The position numbers and the translations under genes are program-made. Below are positions 18,111 through 59,685 of a stretch of DNA of 64,000 nucleotides, piece after piece; position 1 is the stretch's first letter; each line of letters begins with the position of its first letter. Source of the stretch: Terrisporobacter petrolearius (GTDB lineage: Bacteria; Bacillota; Clostridia; Peptostreptococcales; Peptostreptococcaceae). The DNA lies in assembly GCF_020748185.1 (NCBI RefSeq), contig NZ_JAHZMO010000001.1, forward strand, positions 124,001 to 188,000. The letters run 5' to 3'. Below the pieces are notes generated by a model that saw only the letters and a list, made by a program, of their open reading frames with translations, had not been told where the DNA came from and searched no databases.

Positions 18111-19061
18111 ATGAGAATAACAAATACTTCAATGATAAAAAATCACATGTATGATACTCAAGAAAATTTAACTAGAATGAGTAAAATAAATGAGCAGATA
18201 AATTCTAGTAAAATGATAAATAGAGTTTCTGATGATCCACATAAAGCTATAAGGATAATGAACTTAAATAATGAAATAAGATATACAGAAAAATATAACT
18301 ATAATATAGATGAAACTGTAGGTTGGATGAATACAACTGATGGATCTTTAGAGCATTTAGGGAATATGCTTGGAGATATAAAAGAGGATATATTAAAGGT
18401 TGGAAATGGTGTGTATTCTGATGAAGAGTTTAAGGCTATTCAGGCTGAAGTGAATGAAAAAATAAAAGAAATTGCCGATGTAATGAATACTACTTATGGT
18501 GGAAAATATATGTTTGGTGGGACTAATGTAGATGAGCCACCTTTAATAATGGAAGATAAAAATGGTGTAATTACTCTAAAAATCAATCCAAATTCAAATA
18601 TGGGTGATCTAAGAGCTGATATATCTGATGGTATAAATATAGATTATAATATATCAGCTGGTGAGATTTTTAATGGAAAAGATAATAATGGTTCATCAAT
18701 AGATTTTCTTGAAGAAATTAATAATGTGTCTAAACTTATGGATAAAATAGCAAACGGAACTGATGATGAAAAAAGCAAAGCAAAAAAAGAATTATTAGGA
18801 ACGACTAAGGATAATATAGATAATTTGTATAATCATGCACTAGATGAAAGAACTTCTTTAGGTGTTAGAGTAAATACAGCTGAAAAAGTAAAGGGACTTA
18901 ATGAAGAAAACATACTAAATATGAAGGGCGTATTATCTCTAGACCAAGACGTAAATCAAGTTGAGAAATTTATAGAGTTAAAATCAGCTGAATTAGTATA
19001 TCAAGCATCTATAAAAGTAGGGACTACATTAATGCAACCTACTATATTAGATTATCTATAA
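18111..19061 (+). CDS. flgL: Hook-associated protein 3, FlgL
   Basis: A 316-residue flagellin-related protein. The N-terminus MRITNTSMIKNHMYDTQENLTRMSKINEQINS and the ...SDDPHKAIRIMNLNNEI segment are typical of FlgL; the C-terminal helix VEKFIELKSAELVYQASIKVGTTLMQPTILDYL closes the D0/D1 core. It forms the second junction layer. It starts ten bases after flgK. Confidence 0.95.
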   Translation: MRITNTSMIKNHMYDTQENLTRMSKINEQINSSKMINRVSDDPHKAIRIMNLNNEIRYTEKYNYNIDETVGWMNTTDGSLEHLGNMLGDIKEDILKVGNGVYSDEEFKAIQAEVNEKIKEIADVMNTTYGGKYMFGGTNVDEPPLIMEDKNGVITLKINPNSNMGDLRADISDGINIDYNISAGEIFNGKDNNGSSIDFLEEINNVSKLMDKIANGTDDEKSKAKKELLGTTKDNIDNLYNHALDERTSLGVRVNTAEKVKGLNEENILNMKGVLSLDQDVNQVEKFIELKSAELVYQASIKVGTTLMQPTILDYL

Positions 19062-19449: not shown

Positions 19450-19460
19450 GGAGTGGGATG

Positions 19461-19673
19461 ATGTTAGTAATTACTAGGAAAAAGGAAGAATCTTTATTGA
19501 TTGGTGATGATATTGAAATAAAAATAGTCAAAATAGATGACGGAAGTGTAAAAATTGCAATAGATGCCCCAAAGGATAAAATTATACTTAGGAAAGAAGT
19601 ATATGAAAATGTAAGAAAAGAAAATGCTAAAGCAGTTGCAAATACAGATGAAATATTAAAGTTGTTAAAGTAA
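19461..19673 (+). CDS. csrA: Carbon storage regulator CsrA
   Basis: A 70-residue RNA-binding protein beginning [20 protein letters not shown]. Of two adjacent ATG codons (19458 and 19461), the second has better spacing from AAGGAG at 19448 and gives the canonical MLV start. CsrA binds GGA motifs in mRNA leaders; the fliC leader at 22129-22156 carries two. It forms a FliW-CsrA-flagellin control module as in Bacillus subtilis. Confidence 0.96.
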
Positions 19674-19686
19674 GGAAGGAATATTT

Positions 19687-21736: not shown

Positions 21737-22057
21737 ATGGCAGAAAAAATTAGTTTATATAAAGAAATATCATTACAAATTGTTGAATCATTAGAAAATG
21801 AAGAGATATATATAATAGAAGAATTATTAAATAAAAGGCAAGAAATACTAGACAAGCAAATTGATAATAATGAATTTAAGTTTAAGTTAATTAATGAAGG
21901 AATTATTGACATAGATAGAAAGATAGAAGAACTTTTAAAAGATAGTATGTCAAAAGTAAAGCAAGAAATAAAAGAATATAGACTGTCAAAGCAAGTTAAT
22001 AACTCCTATATGAATTACAATAACAAAAATTTAAATATTTTTAATAAAAAAGTATAA
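21737..22057 (+). CDS. FliT-like flagellar protein
   Basis: A 106-residue helical protein; the ATG at 21737 is chosen over a TTG at 21722 because GGGGG at 21724-21728 precedes it. The pattern LYKEISLQIVESLENEEIYIIEELLNKRQEILD, then helices ending KVKQEIKEYRLSKQVNNSYMNYN, resembles the short FliT-like proteins between fliD and fliC in clostridia. FliT proteins chaperone FliD; this role here is inferred from position and fold pattern. Confidence 0.65.
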   Translation: MAEKISLYKEISLQIVESLENEEIYIIEELLNKRQEILDKQIDNNEFKFKLINEGIIDIDRKIEELLKDSMSKVKQEIKEYRLSKQVNNSYMNYNNKNLNIFNKKV

Positions 22058-22164: not shown

Positions 22165-22956
22165 ATGAGAATAAACACTAATTTAAATGCTATGATATCA
22201 ACAAATCAAATGGCAAAAAACACTGCTTTAGCAGGAAATTCTATGGAAAAATTATCTACAGGTTTAAGAATAACTAAAGCTGGAGATGATGCTGCAGGAC
22301 TAGCTATATCAGAAAAAATGAGATCTCAAATAAGAGGTATGGAACAAGCTGATAGAAACGTACAAGATGGTGTGTCTATGGTACAAACTGCAGAAGGTGC
22401 ATTAGAAGAAGCAGGAAATATAGTTCAAAGAATGAGAGAGTTAGGGGTACAAGCTGGTAACTCAACATTAGAAAAAGCTGATAGAGATAAAATATCAGTA
22501 GAATTAGGTCAATTAAAAGAAGAAATAGGTAAAATAGGTTCAGATACTAAGTTTAACAATACTGAAGTATTTACAGATACTACAGTAACAATACAAGCTG
22601 GAGCAAATACTGAAACAAGAACGTTTGCAGTAGGAACATTAAATACTAACGTAACTTCAGATGTATCTACAACAGCAGCAGCAGCAACAGTAGTTGATGA
22701 AGCAACTAAAGACTTAGCAAAAATAAATGAATCAAGAGCTAAATTAGGAGCAGTACAAAATAGATTAGAGTATACTTCTTCAAATTTAACAACATCAACA
22801 GAAAACTTATCTGCAGCAGAATCAAGAATAAGAGATGTAGATGTAGCTAAAGAAATGGTTAAGTTATCTAAGTTCAACATATTAACTCAAGCTTCTCAAG
22901 CTATGGTAGCTCAAGCTAAGCAACAACCAGAACAAGTAACTCAATTATTAAGATAA
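22165..22956 (+). CDS. fliC: Flagellin
   Basis: A 263-residue short flagellin, essentially D0 and D1. The N-terminal half (MRINTNLNAMISTNQMAKN..., RITKAGDDAAGLAISEKM, RNVQDGVSMVQTAEGALEE) and the C-terminal half (RAKLGAVQNRLEYT, AAESRIRDVDVAKEM, ending QPEQVTQLLR) are complete. Between them, residues about 135-180 are rich in Thr, Ser and Ala, the expected surface and the likeliest place for O-glycosylation by the adjoining cassette. It has its own SigD promoter and a terminator. Confidence 0.98.
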   Translation: MRINTNLNAMISTNQMAKNTALAGNSMEKLSTGLRITKAGDDAAGLAISEKMRSQIRGMEQADRNVQDGVSMVQTAEGALEEAGNIVQRMRELGVQAGNSTLEKADRDKISVELGQLKEEIGKIGSDTKFNNTEVFTDTTVTIQAGANTETRTFAVGTLNTNVTSDVSTTAAAATVVDEATKDLAKINESRAKLGAVQNRLEYTSSNLTTSTENLSAAESRIRDVDVAKEMVKLSKFNILTQASQAMVAQAKQQPEQVTQLLR

Positions 22957-34753: not shown

Positions 34754-35731
34754 ATGAAAAAAATTTTGATAACAGGTGGAGCAGGTTTTATAGGTAGCAA
34801 TTTTATTAGATATATGATAAATAAATATGAAGATTATAATATAGTTAATTTAGATTTATTAACATATGCGGGTAATCTTAATAGTTTAAAAGATTTAGAA
34901 TACAAAAAAAATTATAAATTTGTAAAAGGAGACATAAGTGACAGCGAATTTATACTAAGATTATTTGAAAAAGAAAATTTTGAAATGGTTATAAATTTTG
35001 CTGCAGAATCTCACGTAGATAAATCCATAAGCAATCCAAGTGTATTCATGCAAACAAATATAGTAGGTACTCAAATTTTATTAGAAGCATGCAGAATACA
35101 TGGGGTAAAAAGATATCATCAAGTATCTACTGACGAAGTTTACGGTCAACTGCCATTAGATAAAAAGGAATTGCTATTTACAGAAAATACACCTCTAAAT
35201 CCAAGCTCTCCTTATTCTGCATCTAAGGCATCAGCGGATTTTATAGTGAATTCATATAATAAAACGTATAATATGCATACAACGATTTCTAGATGCTCTA
35301 ATAATTATGGACCATACCAGAATTGTGAAAAACTTATACCTTTAAGTGTTACAAAAGCTTTAAATAATGAAAAAATACCTTTATATGGAAGTGGGATGAA
35401 TATAAGAGATTGGTTACATGTAAATGATCATTGTGAAGCCATAGATTTAATTTTGCATAAAGGGAGAATAGGAGAAGTATACAATATTGGTGGGAATAGT
35501 GAAAAAACAAATCTGGAAGTTGTAAAGTGTATATTAAAAACATTAGGTAAATCTGAAGAACTTATTGCTTATGTGAAAGATAGGGCTGGACATGACTTAA
35601 GATATGCAATAGATTCTAGCAAATTAAAAGATGAATTAGGATGGAAGCCTAGATATACCTTTGAAAATGGAATAATAGAAACAATAGAATGGTATTTGCA
35701 AAATAAGATTTGGTGGAATTCAAATAAATAG
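34754..35731 (+). CDS. rmlB: dTDP-glucose 4,6-dehydratase
   Basis: A 325-residue short-chain dehydrogenase converting dTDP-glucose to dTDP-4-keto-6-deoxyglucose. TGGAGFIGSNFIRY binds NAD; AAESHVDKSI, STDEVYGQL and YSASKAS (catalytic Tyr and Lys) are intact, as is CSNNYGPYQ. AAGGAG precedes the ATG. rmlC and rmlD are absent here, so the product is not obviously meant for rhamnose and fits the adjacent sugar aminotransferase. Confidence 0.97.
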   Translation: MKKILITGGAGFIGSNFIRYMINKYEDYNIVNLDLLTYAGNLNSLKDLEYKKNYKFVKGDISDSEFILRLFEKENFEMVINFAAESHVDKSISNPSVFMQTNIVGTQILLEACRIHGVKRYHQVSTDEVYGQLPLDKKELLFTENTPLNPSSPYSASKASADFIVNSYNKTYNMHTTISRCSNNYGPYQNCEKLIPLSVTKALNNEKIPLYGSGMNIRDWLHVNDHCEAIDLILHKGRIGEVYNIGGNSEKTNLEVVKCILKTLGKSEELIAYVKDRAGHDLRYAIDSSKLKDELGWKPRYTFENGIIETIEWYLQNKIWWNSNK

Positions 35732-35843: not shown

Positions 35844-35872
35844 TAAAGTTTATGAAAAATATACCGTACTAT
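35844..35872 (+). promoter_or_regulatory. SigD-type promoter of the flagellin-like coiled-coil gene
   Basis: TAAA at 35844-35847, 15 bases, then ACCGTACTA from 35863. It follows the same pattern as the cheA and MCP promoters and sits about 70 bases before the next start codon. Confidence 0.65.
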
Positions 35873-35940
35873 AATGATAGGGAAATTATGGAAAAATAAG
35901 TATATAAATTAATAAATGTTTATAAAAGTGAGGGAAAACT

Positions 35941-36621
35941 ATGATTATAATAGGGGAGAAGGCATATTTAAAAACACATGATAAAAGAGAAATTCAAGAG
36001 CTAGATATTGATAATAAAATCAATAAAACTATAAAAGCACACAATGATGAAATAAAGTCTACTAAAGTTCTAAGAAAAGAATCAAAAACAAGCAATAATG
36101 ACATGTATAACAACCTAAAAAATAAAGCTAGTATATTAAATAGAGATAAAAGAAATATTCAAGATAAAGTATCAGAAATTCAAATCAAGCAGCAAAAAGT
36201 AGAAAATATGGAAGAGTCACTAAATCAAATAAAATCATACTACCTTAGCTCTATAAGAAAAGCGAAACAAGAAGAAGAGAAAGAGAAAGTTAAAGTTAGA
36301 ATAAATAAAATAAAAAAAGAAGTAGATGATTTAAATAGTGAATGTATAACTGAGGTAACAGAGCTAAAAGACTCACAAGATATAATAGATGCTATAGGTG
36401 CAGCTTTAAACAAAATAAATGATATTAAAAATAAGCTTGAACAGTATAAATCAAAATTAATAAATCTTGAATGCTTAGTAGAAAAAAGCAAGAATAAATT
36501 GGATTTAGAAGAAAAAAAAATAGAAATAAATTTAAATGAAAATATAATATCAAATCCACTAGATTTTATAAGTATAAGTGGTGATTTAAATACAGGGATT
36601 GTTGTAGATATTATAATATAA
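35941..36621 (+). CDS. Coiled-coil protein with flagellin-like segments
   Basis: A 226-residue, Lys/Glu/Asn-rich, almost wholly helical protein without signal peptide or membrane segment. Three stretches line up with this organism's FliC in the same order. RNIQDKVSEIQ (71-81) aligns with RNVQDGVSMVQ of FliC 64-74 (7 of 11 identical). VRINKIKKEVDDLNS (119-133) aligns with VELGQLKEEIGKIGS. LNKINDIKNKL (155-165) aligns with LAKINESRAKL. The C-terminus (NPLDFISISGDLNTGIVVDIII) is not flagellin-like. GTGAGGG precedes the ATG. With its SigD-type promoter between the glycan cassette and the early operon, it is probably a diverged flagellin relative or an axial or export-associated protein. I do not recognise a named family. 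Confidence 0.7.
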   Translation: MIIIGEKAYLKTHDKREIQELDIDNKINKTIKAHNDEIKSTKVLRKESKTSNNDMYNNLKNKASILNRDKRNIQDKVSEIQIKQQKVENMEESLNQIKSYYLSSIRKAKQEEEKEKVKVRINKIKKEVDDLNSECITEVTELKDSQDIIDAIGAALNKINDIKNKLEQYKSKLINLECLVEKSKNKLDLEEKKIEINLNENIISNPLDFISISGDLNTGIVVDIII

Positions 36622-36771
36622 AATAAATATAATTTGATTATAAATTATAAAAATTTTTGATTGTCATAATTTAACTTTAATTTTTGAAAAAATAGTATAT
36701 ATTACTATTTTATTTGTAGGTTTTATTGAAAAAAGTTGAAAAATATGATACTTTATACATAAAAGTAATAT

Positions 36772-36875
36772 ATTGGCAAATTTGGAGAAATCCAAAGACG
36801 CAAAGCTAAAGGGGCTACGGTAAAATTAATTATTTAAATAATATAATTTGCTATGCCAGCCAGTTGCCTAAGAAT
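36772..36875 (+). ncRNA. c-di-GMP-I (GEMM-I) riboswitch aptamer
   Basis: The conserved core is complete: GGCAAA (36775), the GGAGAAATCC stem-loop with a GAAA tetraloop-type turn, GACGCAAAGCTA (36798-36809) with the ligand-binding CAAAG, GGGGCTACGG, an AT-rich variable stem, then GCCAGCCAGTTGCC (36855-36868) containing the tetraloop receptor and the P1 strand pairing with GGCAA. The same riboswitch class controls flgB in C. difficile, where c-di-GMP lowers flagellar expression through premature termination. The terminator 100 bases downstream supports an OFF switch here. Confidence 0.95.
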
Positions 36876-36976
36876 TTACATTCTTTGTTATTATAATTAT
36901 CCCTTAATTATTTATATAAGTGTTTTTATGAATTTTTTGTATACTTTAAGGAGATTTTATAATATTTTCGATGGTG

Positions 36977-37007
36977 ACTATCCTTATTATTTGGGATAGT
37001 TTTTTTA
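36977..37007 (+). terminator. Riboswitch-associated terminator
   Basis: ACTATCC (36977-36983) pairs with GGATAGT (36994-37000), 10-base loop, followed by a run of six T. Its position about 100 bases after the aptamer suggests it is the expression platform, though the pairing that links aptamer and terminator could not be resolved by eye. Confidence 0.8.
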
Positions 37008-37395: not shown

Positions 37396-37719
37396 ATGGA
37401 AATATACAGTTTGATGAAAATGGGCTTAGATGCGACAGAGTTGAGAAGTAGGGTAATCGCAAATAACATTGCCAATATAAATACTGTAGGCTATGAAAGA
37501 AAATATGTTAATTTTGAAGATACGTTAACAGATAAATTAGAAGATGCCAAAATTGAAGTAAAAACAGAGAAAAACGCATCTATGAGGGAAGATGGAAATA
37601 ATGTTGACCTAGAAAATGAAAAAGTAAATCAAGCTGCCTCGACTCTACAATATAATGCCTTAGTAAGTTTAACTAATACGAAAATTGCAATGACCAAAAG
37701 TATAATTTCGGGGAGGTAA
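37396..37719 (+). CDS. flgB: Flagellar proximal rod protein FlgB
   Basis: A 107-residue rod protein with the motif LRSRVIANNIANINTVGYERKYVNFEDTL near residues 17-45 and a C-terminal helix (QAASTLQYNALVSLTNTKIAMTKSIISGR). First gene of the early operon. GGGAGG precedes the ATG. Slightly short compared with enteric FlgB, as in other clostridia. Confidence 0.95.
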   Translation: MEIYSLMKMGLDATELRSRVIANNIANINTVGYERKYVNFEDTLTDKLEDAKIEVKTEKNASMREDGNNVDLENEKVNQAASTLQYNALVSLTNTKIAMTKSIISGR

Positions 37720-49052: not shown

Positions 49053-50885
49053 ATGTTATTCATATTTATTAGAGTAATAACATTTTTTTCTTCTCTTAAT
49101 ATTTTATTTCCAGCGGGAACCCCAAACACTTTTAAAGTATGCTTTTCAATATTAATGTCTATTATAATATCCTCTGGCGTTAATATTGATGTCAATGTAC
49201 TTAATACATTTGACTTAATTAGATTAGTAGCAATGGAAACTGTAAATGGATTACTTTTAGGTTATATAACAAATTTATGTTTTAATAGCTTGAAAATAGC
49301 CGGTAGTTTAATTGATCAGCAAATAGGCTTGTCAATGAGTAGTATTTACGACCCAAATAGTAAAGAACAAGCAACTTTGATAGAAAATCTTATGTACTGG
49401 ATGGGTATAATTATATTCTTTAGTATGAACGGTCACCACAAATTAATAATAGGCATACAGGAAAGTTTTCATTTAATAAAAATAGGTGAAAATTTAATAC
49501 AAAATAATTTTTACTACATTGTACATGTATTTGTACAGTGCTTTACTATAGGATTTAAAATTGCAGTTCCGGTCATATTATCACTTATATTTACAGATTT
49601 AATAATGGGTCTTATATCTAGAAGTGTACCCCAATTAAATGTAATGATAATAGGAATGCCTTTGAAGATGCTTGTTGGTGTGGTTTTCTTTATGATAGCA
49701 CTTCCGTTTATAATAACAGAAATACATAACTTATTAAATAAAATACCAGATATATTAGATGGAACCCTAAGTATGGTTAATAGTAATATGATGACCTCTA
49801 TGGGGCCAGTAGGTATAGTATTATCAATGGGGAGTGACAAAACAGAAGAGCCCACAGCAAAGAAAAAAAGAGATGCTAGAAAAAAAGGAAATATTGCAAA
49901 AAGTAAAGAGGTAACAACGGCTATAACTCTAGTGGCTATGCTAATAATAATTTTTACTATGTCTGATTATGTAATATTAGAAATTAAAAATTTTATGATT
50001 AACTTATTTAGTAGTAATTTTAGCATGAACTTTGAAGGTGGAGTAATATTAAATTCACTTGGAAGTAAGATTTTACTTTCATTTATGAAAATATTTTTAC
50101 CAATAGGGTTTATCATAATGATATTTGGCGTAATCGGAAATCTTATTCAATCAGGTATGTTATTTACAGGAGAAGGACTTAAACCACAATTTTCAAAGTT
50201 AAATCCAATAAATGGATTTAAAAATATGTTTTCCCTTAAAGCTTTAGGGACTTTAGTTAAAAGTGTAGCTATTATAAGTGTATTATTATATATCGGTTAT
50301 TCTTTTATGAATAAAAACTTTGAAGGAATTATGAAAAGTGCAGATATTTATCTTCCATATCTTTTAAATACAATAATTGAACTTATAAAATCATTACTTG
50401 GAAGAATATGTTTAGCTGTTGTTTTAATAGCAGTAGTAGATTATGGATATCAACGATTTACTCATAATAAAGAGTTAAAAATGACTAAGCAAGAAGTAAA
50501 AGAAGAATATAAACAGATGGAGGGAGATCCTCAAGTAAAAGGAAAAATAAAACAAAAACAAAGAGAAATATCTAATCGTAGAATGATGCAAGCAGTGCCT
50601 AGCGCAACAGTTATTGTAACAAATCCTACACACATATCTATAGCAATTAAGTATGAGAAAGGGATAGATTCTACTCCAAGAGTAGTTGCCAAGGGGGCAG
50701 ATGTTGTAGCATTTAAGATAAGAGAAGTTGCTAAAGAGCATGATATACCAATTATTGAAAATAAACCACTTGCAAGACTTATATATAAAGAGGTTGATAT
50801 AGATAAGGAAATACCAGAAGAAATGTATCAAGCAGTGGCAGAAGTATTGGTTGCAGTTTATAAAATCAAAAACAAATATAAATAG
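49053..50885 (+). CDS. flhB: FliR-FlhB fusion protein
   Basis: A 610-residue natural fusion. Residues 1 to about 255 are FliR (PAGTPNTFKVCFSILMSIIISSGV; SLIDQQIGLSMSSIYDPNSKEQ; PQLNVMIIGMPLKMLVGV). Residues from about 258 are FlhB, beginning GSDKTEEPTAKKKRDARKKGNIAKSKEV, with four helices and the cytoplasmic domain bearing the autocleavage site Asn524-Pro525-Thr-His. The frame is continuous with no stop or start between them. The same fusion is known in C. difficile and other clostridia. It fixes FliR and FlhB at 1:1 in the gate. Confidence 0.95.
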   Translation: MLFIFIRVITFFSSLNILFPAGTPNTFKVCFSILMSIIISSGVNIDVNVLNTFDLIRLVAMETVNGLLLGYITNLCFNSLKIAGSLIDQQIGLSMSSIYDPNSKEQATLIENLMYWMGIIIFFSMNGHHKLIIGIQESFHLIKIGENLIQNNFYYIVHVFVQCFTIGFKIAVPVILSLIFTDLIMGLISRSVPQLNVMIIGMPLKMLVGVVFFMIALPFIITEIHNLLNKIPDILDGTLSMVNSNMMTSMGPVGIVLSMGSDKTEEPTAKKKRDARKKGNIAKSKEVTTAITLVAMLIIIFTMSDYVILEIKNFMINLFSSNFSMNFEGGVILNSLGSKILLSFMKIFLPIGFIIMIFGVIGNLIQSGMLFTGEGLKPQFSKLNPINGFKNMFSLKALGTLVKSVAIISVLLYIGYSFMNKNFEGIMKSADIYLPYLLNTIIELIKSLLGRICLAVVLIAVVDYGYQRFTHNKELKMTKQEVKEEYKQMEGDPQVKGKIKQKQREISNRRMMQAVPSATVIVTNPTHISIAIKYEKGIDSTPRVVAKGADVVAFKIREVAKEHDIPIIENKPLARLIYKEVDIDKEIPEEMYQAVAEVLVAVYKIKNKYK

Positions 50886-59609: not shown

Positions 59610-59637
59610 TAAAGTAAATTATGATTTTTCCGTATAT
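59610..59637 (+). promoter_or_regulatory. SigD-type promoter of the second MCP gene
   Basis: TAAA at 59610-59613, 15 bases, then TCCGTATAT from 59629, about 50 bases upstream of the start codon. Confidence 0.75.
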
Positions 59638-59685
59638 TATAAAAGGTTTACAATTGTAGAGGAAAAAGTTATGGAGGAATAAATT

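Follow-up and report, generated by a model that had tools for sequence, protein, structure and literature searches.

A predicted D1-only flagellin-like protein encoded ahead of flgB in Terrisporobacter petrolearius and its possible role as a flagellin mimic

Between its flagellin-glycosylation genes (rfbB ending at 35731) and its flgB operon (starting at 37396), the flagellar locus of Terrisporobacter petrolearius harbors a gene for a coiled-coil protein of 226 residues, which raises the question of whether this product derives from flagellin and, if so, what function such a relative could perform. The gene, here called FLP, has an ATG start and the ribosome site GTGAGGG, is present in one copy in the T. 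petrolearius genome, and is separate from the flgL gene of the locus (18111 to 19061). All positions refer to the window, i.e., the entire 64-kb (64,000-nucleotide) stretch of DNA that was analyzed, and the features discussed are collected in Table 1. The original prediction, made from the letters of the window, had described a SigD-controlled, flagellin-derived protein sharing collinear segments with the FliC of the same locus. Two further properties of the locus were observed: csrA is located at 19450 to 19680, between fliW and fliS, so that a FliW-CsrA feedback is encoded in the same locus, and fliR and flhB form one fused 610-aa open reading frame (ORF) at 49053 to 50885.

Table 1. Coordinates (window numbering) of FLP, its predicted segments, and neighboring features
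Feature	Position	Strand	Evidence
Sigma-D/fliC-type promoter, TAAAG-N15-CCGTACTATA	35844..35873	+	Top matrix score in the 64-kb window
D1-only flagellin-like protein FLP (predicted)	35941..36621	+	ORF list; ten orthologs; dN/dS of 0.24 versus T. mayombei
Residues 1-50, lineage-specific N-terminal segment (MIIIGEKAYLKTYD... or MNIDKN.IYQVTLY...) replacing flagellin D0-N/spoke	35941..36090	+	Alignment; local flagellin match begins at column 55
Residues 52-140, helices matching flagellin ND1a/ND1b (RNIQDKVSEIQ..., ...KVKVRINKIKKEVDDL)	36094..36360	+	hhalign columns 55-140; PDB flagellins at profile 36-138
Residues 147-195, helix matching flagellin CD1 (ALNKINDIKNKLEQYKSKL...)	36379..36525	+	47-column ungapped profile match; second-domain PDB matches
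Residues 199-226, private conserved tail NPLDFIFIEGDxxTGIIVNI replacing flagellin D0-C	36535..36618	+	Conservation; unmatched elsewhere
Hairpin AAATAGTA/TACTATTT, then T-rich; candidate FLP terminator before the flgB promoter	36689..36711	+	-6.7 kcal/mol, z -2.6
c-di-GMP-I riboswitch of the flgB operon	36765..36871	+	Rfam RF01051, 70.2 bits; neighbor marking the border, outside FLP
fliC of the same locus (comparison protein)	22165..22956	+	Own promoter at 22055

The relation to flagellin was recovered by several comparisons. The segments RNIQDKVSEIQ of FLP and RNVQDGVSMVQ of FliC are identical at 7 of 11 positions, and BLASTP of FLP against the window FliC returned 65 ungapped columns, 13 of them identical and 36 similar, with an E value of 4e-5 for that single comparison. 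When a profile of the ten family members was searched against all PDB sequences, the first 14 matches were all flagellins (best E value, 3.9e-5), which aligned in one register at profile positions 36 to 138 (ND1) and 142 to 202 (CD1), with the N- and C-terminal segments in order; flagellins remained the top PDB matches once two diverged members (G024 and G040) had been added. The C-terminal half of FLP alone matched CD1 over 47 ungapped columns and ended at the CD1/CD0 border, "AESRI." In profile-profile comparisons (hhalign), flagellin scored 38.9, followed by FlgL in the same register (28.2) and by FliH, the best unrelated coiled coil (24.3), while all other controls, FliJ, FliT, and FliS among them, scored below 19 and reversed controls scored 13 to 14. 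Six-frame searches of whole genomes returned, after the orthologs, mostly flagellins and FlgL, and in some genomes (G067 and G058) an N-terminal and a C-terminal match to FLP fell within one flagellin. Chance similarity among coiled coils was ruled out by the FliJ, FliH, FliT, and FliS controls and by the reversed-sequence profile, which retrieved no flagellin from the PDB (best E value, 0.053). FLP is homologous to flagellin, its two segments representing the ND1 and CD1 helices in order; the profile search, named beforehand as a possible refutation, has borne out both the flagellin derivation and the collinear segments originally claimed. No flagellin model was present among the listed Pfam matches of the ten members at E values of up to 1, which explains why annotation would miss FLP.

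What has been retained is predicted to be the three-helix D1 core (ND1a, ND1b, and CD1), making FLP a reduced flagellin paralog. No variable domain lies between the ND1 and CD1 parts, unlike in flagellin, and at neither end of FLP did a local profile match extend into the D0-N or D0-C part of flagellin. The original prediction that the N-terminal 60 residues of flagellin are lacking holds insofar as D0-N is absent, but this part is replaced rather than deleted, with approximately 50 unrelated residues preceding the D1 part; the QLLR-type C terminus is absent, as it had noted, and an unrelated tail of 28 residues is found instead. The absence of D0 at both ends also supports its view that the protein would be unable to polymerize like ordinary flagellin. 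Mean column identity across the last 28 residues is 68%, versus 51% for the whole protein, and NPLDFIFIEGDxxTGIIVNI had no match elsewhere in 18 genomes, the PDB, or Pfam, which rules out the tail as a known module. AlphaFold2, applied to two or three sequences, returned one unbroken helix of approximately 190 residues (pTM, 0.26 to 0.27) that is uninformative as a model, and Foldseek with this low-confidence helix retrieved no match.

The upstream region of FLP points to expression together with flagellin. Because a scan with the textbook sigma-D consensus (GCCGATAT) was uninformative, reaching significance neither for the promoter of FLP (p = 0.37) nor for that of fliC in the window (p = 0.42), a weight matrix was derived from the fliC promoters of 12 relatives, with Terrisporobacter left out, and both strands of the window were scored. 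The TAAA-N15-ACCGTA promoter that had been proposed for FLP does start at 35844, and this site ranked first with 22.3 bits, ahead of the window fliC promoter (18.0 bits) and the next match (12.6 bits). A promoter of the form TAAAG-N15-CCGATAT precedes 15 fliC genes of the Peptostreptococcaceae, nine of which are from FLP carriers, and the 12 promoters of the matrix were taken from this set. With the same matrix, the T. mayombei gene was found to possess the same site (23.1 bits) and that of G032 a similar one (18.6 bits), weaker fliC-type sites were present before the orthologs of G047, G016, and G009 (p of approximately 0.01), and no fliC-type site was found for four orthologs. Since the 35844 site ranks first in the window, above fliC itself, the predicted sigma-D-type control of FLP is well supported, in agreement with the SigD-type promoter originally assigned. 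The fourth-best fliC-type match in the window (59610 to 59639, 11.8 bits) lies upstream of the gene for the second chemoreceptor (59686), at a distance of 76 bases.

The c-di-GMP-I riboswitch that borders FLP on its downstream side also precedes flgB in Clostridioides difficile, which in addition possesses a flagellar phase switch at that position; in the window, a search for such a switch before flgB yielded only weak AT-rich inverted repeats. The aptamer is followed, upstream of flgB, by a terminator-like hairpin (36976 to 37001), as in C. difficile, and the entire unit (36765 to 37001) is conserved in six relatives. Strong hairpins are found directly behind the FLP orthologs of G047 and G016, similarly to the candidate terminator listed in Table 1, and a separate SigA-like promoter appears, from our reading of the sequence, to precede the flgB riboswitch. 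Because hairpins stand behind the gene and this promoter before the riboswitch, a single-gene (monocistronic), late FLP transcript is suggested. In C. difficile, fliC and flgM are transcribed from SigD promoters and flgB from a SigA promoter (PMC7438776).

The FLP family was detected in 10 of 71 Peptostreptococcaceae genomes, with members of 215 to 239 aa, and the nine others are 32 to 80% identical to the window protein, the closest named relative being that of Terrisporobacter mayombei (77 to 80%). Searches of 394 genomes at the order level and 391 at the class level found no relative besides two matches with E values of approximately 5e-8, one of which is a flagellin, and the viral contigs searched contained none. 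Within the family Peptostreptococcaceae, FLP is present in 10 of 45 flagellated versus 0 of 26 flagellin-less genomes (Fisher p = 0.011): all ten carriers possess both flagellin and flgB, whereas FLP is missing from 35 flagellated genomes and from each of the three genomes of its genus that have no flagellin. Because of this patchy distribution, FLP is dispensable for flagella in the Peptostreptococcaceae; the flgB-plus-flgC tree is too poorly resolved to separate a single gain followed by losses from repeated gains. Relative to T. mayombei, FLP has a dN/dS of 0.24, like fliK (0.25) and flgD (0.21), and is for this reason a real gene under purifying selection, a pseudogene or spurious ORF being ruled out by this ratio and the ten intact orthologs.

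A survey of gene neighborhoods in the Peptostreptococcaceae, which the original prediction had advised, placed FLP directly upstream of flgB in eight of the ten carriers; the riboswitch separates the two genes in the window, as it does in six of the other seven carriers with this arrangement. In flagellated relatives without FLP, flgB directly follows glycosylation or other genes, and the gene is absent at this position from flagellated Clostridioides-like relatives (with a 290-aa flagellin), consistent with what had been said of the C. difficile locus. The two remaining carriers, G016 and G047 (L036 and L035), harbor FLP outside the flagellar locus, between genes for a YfcC-type transporter and a glutaminase, and the conserved TACCGATATATG element is retained upstream of both relocated genes. 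The two longer, diverged members (308 and 425 aa; L117:1175-2101 and L116:3079-4356 of G024 and G040), whose ND1-like and CD1-like parts are set apart by a long inserted coiled coil, adjoin a transglycosylase gene within the flagellar locus.

In the established flagellar architecture, axial subunits line and pack the channel wall with paired D0 terminal helices, and a D1 core without D0 has no normal place in the filament wall. Cap, junction, and axial roles, all of which the original prediction had entertained, are weakened by the absence of both D0 segments and appear unlikely, since a protein of this predicted architecture could not take up a normal place in that wall. Among the partner types that it had offered, competition for FliS or FliW would be the best fit, in view of a known D1-only protein that looks like flagellin and has just such biochemistry: HP1076 of Helicobacter pylori resembles flagellin D1, binds FliS (Kd of approximately 15 nM) on the surface used by flagellin D1, and competes with flagellin for FliS, this binding being lost without its end segments (PMC7248283). 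In Bacillus subtilis, FliS contacts the D1 core and D0-C of flagellin, and FliW binds an opposing face (PMC6070490).

It is, on this basis, tentatively proposed, with slightly less than even confidence, that FLP is a non-polymerizing flagellin mimic which acts on FliS or FliW. FLP would be produced late, alongside flagellin, from its sigma-D-type promoter, and would present a flagellin D1 surface while being unable to join the filament. As regards its partner, place, and effect, we infer from this combination that FLP may dock on the cytoplasmic proteins which handle flagellin, first FliS, as the protein that contacts D1 and D0-C, and possibly FliW, and that it may compete with or buffer flagellin before export in the manner of HP1076, its conserved tail perhaps providing a second contact or an anchor to the membrane or the secretion gate. 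One point against mimicry toward FliS is that D0-C, the main FliS-binding part of flagellin, is absent from FLP. We regard as doubtful the more specific proposal that, in a lineage of Gram-positive gut bacteria, a flagellin gene has been converted into one that is co-expressed with flagellin and dedicated to inhibiting or buffering its handling. The product, a D1 mimic with a new tail, would occupy FliS (or FliW) and in this way govern how flagellin flows toward the export gate, or release CsrA control.

A secreted or minor structural role ranks second, although we consider it rather unlikely that FLP is exported via the flagellar channel as a non-polymerizing, secreted flagellin-like protein or as a minor component of the filament or junction, as proposed by analogy with Campylobacter FlaC. 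Export signals are often flexible, and the K/N-rich N-terminal 50 residues of FLP may be so; its late flagellin-like promoter, its flagellin ancestry, and its location between flagellin-glycosylation genes and flgB are likewise in keeping with export. Both D0 ends, by which axial proteins pack in the channel wall, are nevertheless absent from FLP, and FlaC itself possesses such ends.

It is less probable still, and in our estimation improbable, that the flagellin-like core is an inherited scaffold and that activity resides in the private tail, acting elsewhere, for example, in flagellin glycosylation or regulation: conservation is highest in the tail, the gene adjoins flagellin-glycosylation genes, and relocation away from the flagellar locus has occurred in two genomes, yet both relocated genes retain a fliC-like CCGATAT -10 element and every carrier is flagellated. 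Very improbable is an origin of FLP as another kind of coiled-coil flagellar protein (a FliJ-, FlgN-, or FliT-like helper) resembling D1 through helix-bundle convergence, since its high K/E/N content, the weak SMC/Rad50-type matches in single-protein scans, the coiled coil inserted in the diverged members, and the lack of a Pfam flagellin match in all ten members are countered by the ordered, single-register PDB flagellin matches, the failure of the reversed profile to retrieve any, the far lower profile-profile scores of FliJ, FliH, FliT, and FliS, and the predominance of flagellins and FlgL in the six-frame searches.

To our knowledge, D1-only flagellin look-alikes are represented by one lineage, that of HP1076 in the Epsilonproteobacteria, the role of which is unsettled. 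Should FLP act as an inhibitor or buffer of flagellin handling, it would be an evolutionary counterpart of HP1076 that arose in parallel and, to the extent of our search, the first such case in the Firmicutes. That a second D1-only family exists, in the Firmicutes, and is under selection and apparently produced alongside flagellin suggests a benefit in imitating the D1 face of flagellin. FLP also offers a testable system, in bacteria which possess FliS and the FliW-CsrA feedback and include closely related carriers and non-carriers, and it marks an annotation gap, as no tested member is recognized by Pfam as a flagellin relative.

Three other flagellin variants were observed among the genomes searched. 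The 605-aa flagellin of G049 (L026:1282-3099) carries an apparent zinc-protease motif, HEMTH, in its variable region and is flagellinolysin-like; G020 (L053, G020:C5:54051-54458) encodes a diverged flagellin paralog of 286 aa with a normal-looking N terminus and an aberrant C terminus without QLLR, possibly a non-structural flagellin; and in G043 (G043:C4:163524-173970) five or more nearly identical flagellin genes, of which one appears truncated, stand in tandem upstream of the glycosylation genes.

Compared with known systems, FLP resembles flagellin (FliC/Hag; PF00669, PF00700) in the order and register of its ND1 and CD1 helices and in its fliC-type promoter but differs in its predicted lack of D0-N, D0-C, the QLLR end, the variable domain, and a Pfam match; because neither D0 nor a Pfam flagellin model was recovered, we would not assign it to the flagellin family proper. 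The paired D0 terminal helices of the axial proteins (FlgK, FlgL, FliD, and the rod and hook proteins) are likewise missing, and although the hook-filament junction protein FlgL has D1 helices in common with FLP, FLP is nearer to flagellin. Like FLP, Campylobacter FlaC is a flagellin paralog other than the main filament protein; unlike FLP, it is a flagellin proper. FlaC is secreted and without a role in motility (PMC4863622). HP1076 is both soluble and membrane associated, and its deletion gave no flagellation or motility phenotype (PMC7248283), so that its role, too, is unsettled. The HP1076 entries (3K1H, 3K1I, and 6LEA) were not among the best 60 of the 72 PDB matches of the FLP profile, which indicates only a shared D1 origin; what we put forward, with a confidence just under even, is that FLP works like HP1076, common family membership not being asserted. 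The FLP promoter is predicted to be sigma-D type whereas that of HP1076 is RpoN dependent, and the NPLDFIFIEGD tail is found only in the FLP family. Nevertheless, judging from its sequence and promoter prediction, FLP would share with this FliS partner a short D1-like bundle with short N- and C-terminal extensions and no D0, expression with the flagellar genes, and restriction to one lineage (PDB 3K1H, 3K1I, and 6LEA; PMC7248283).
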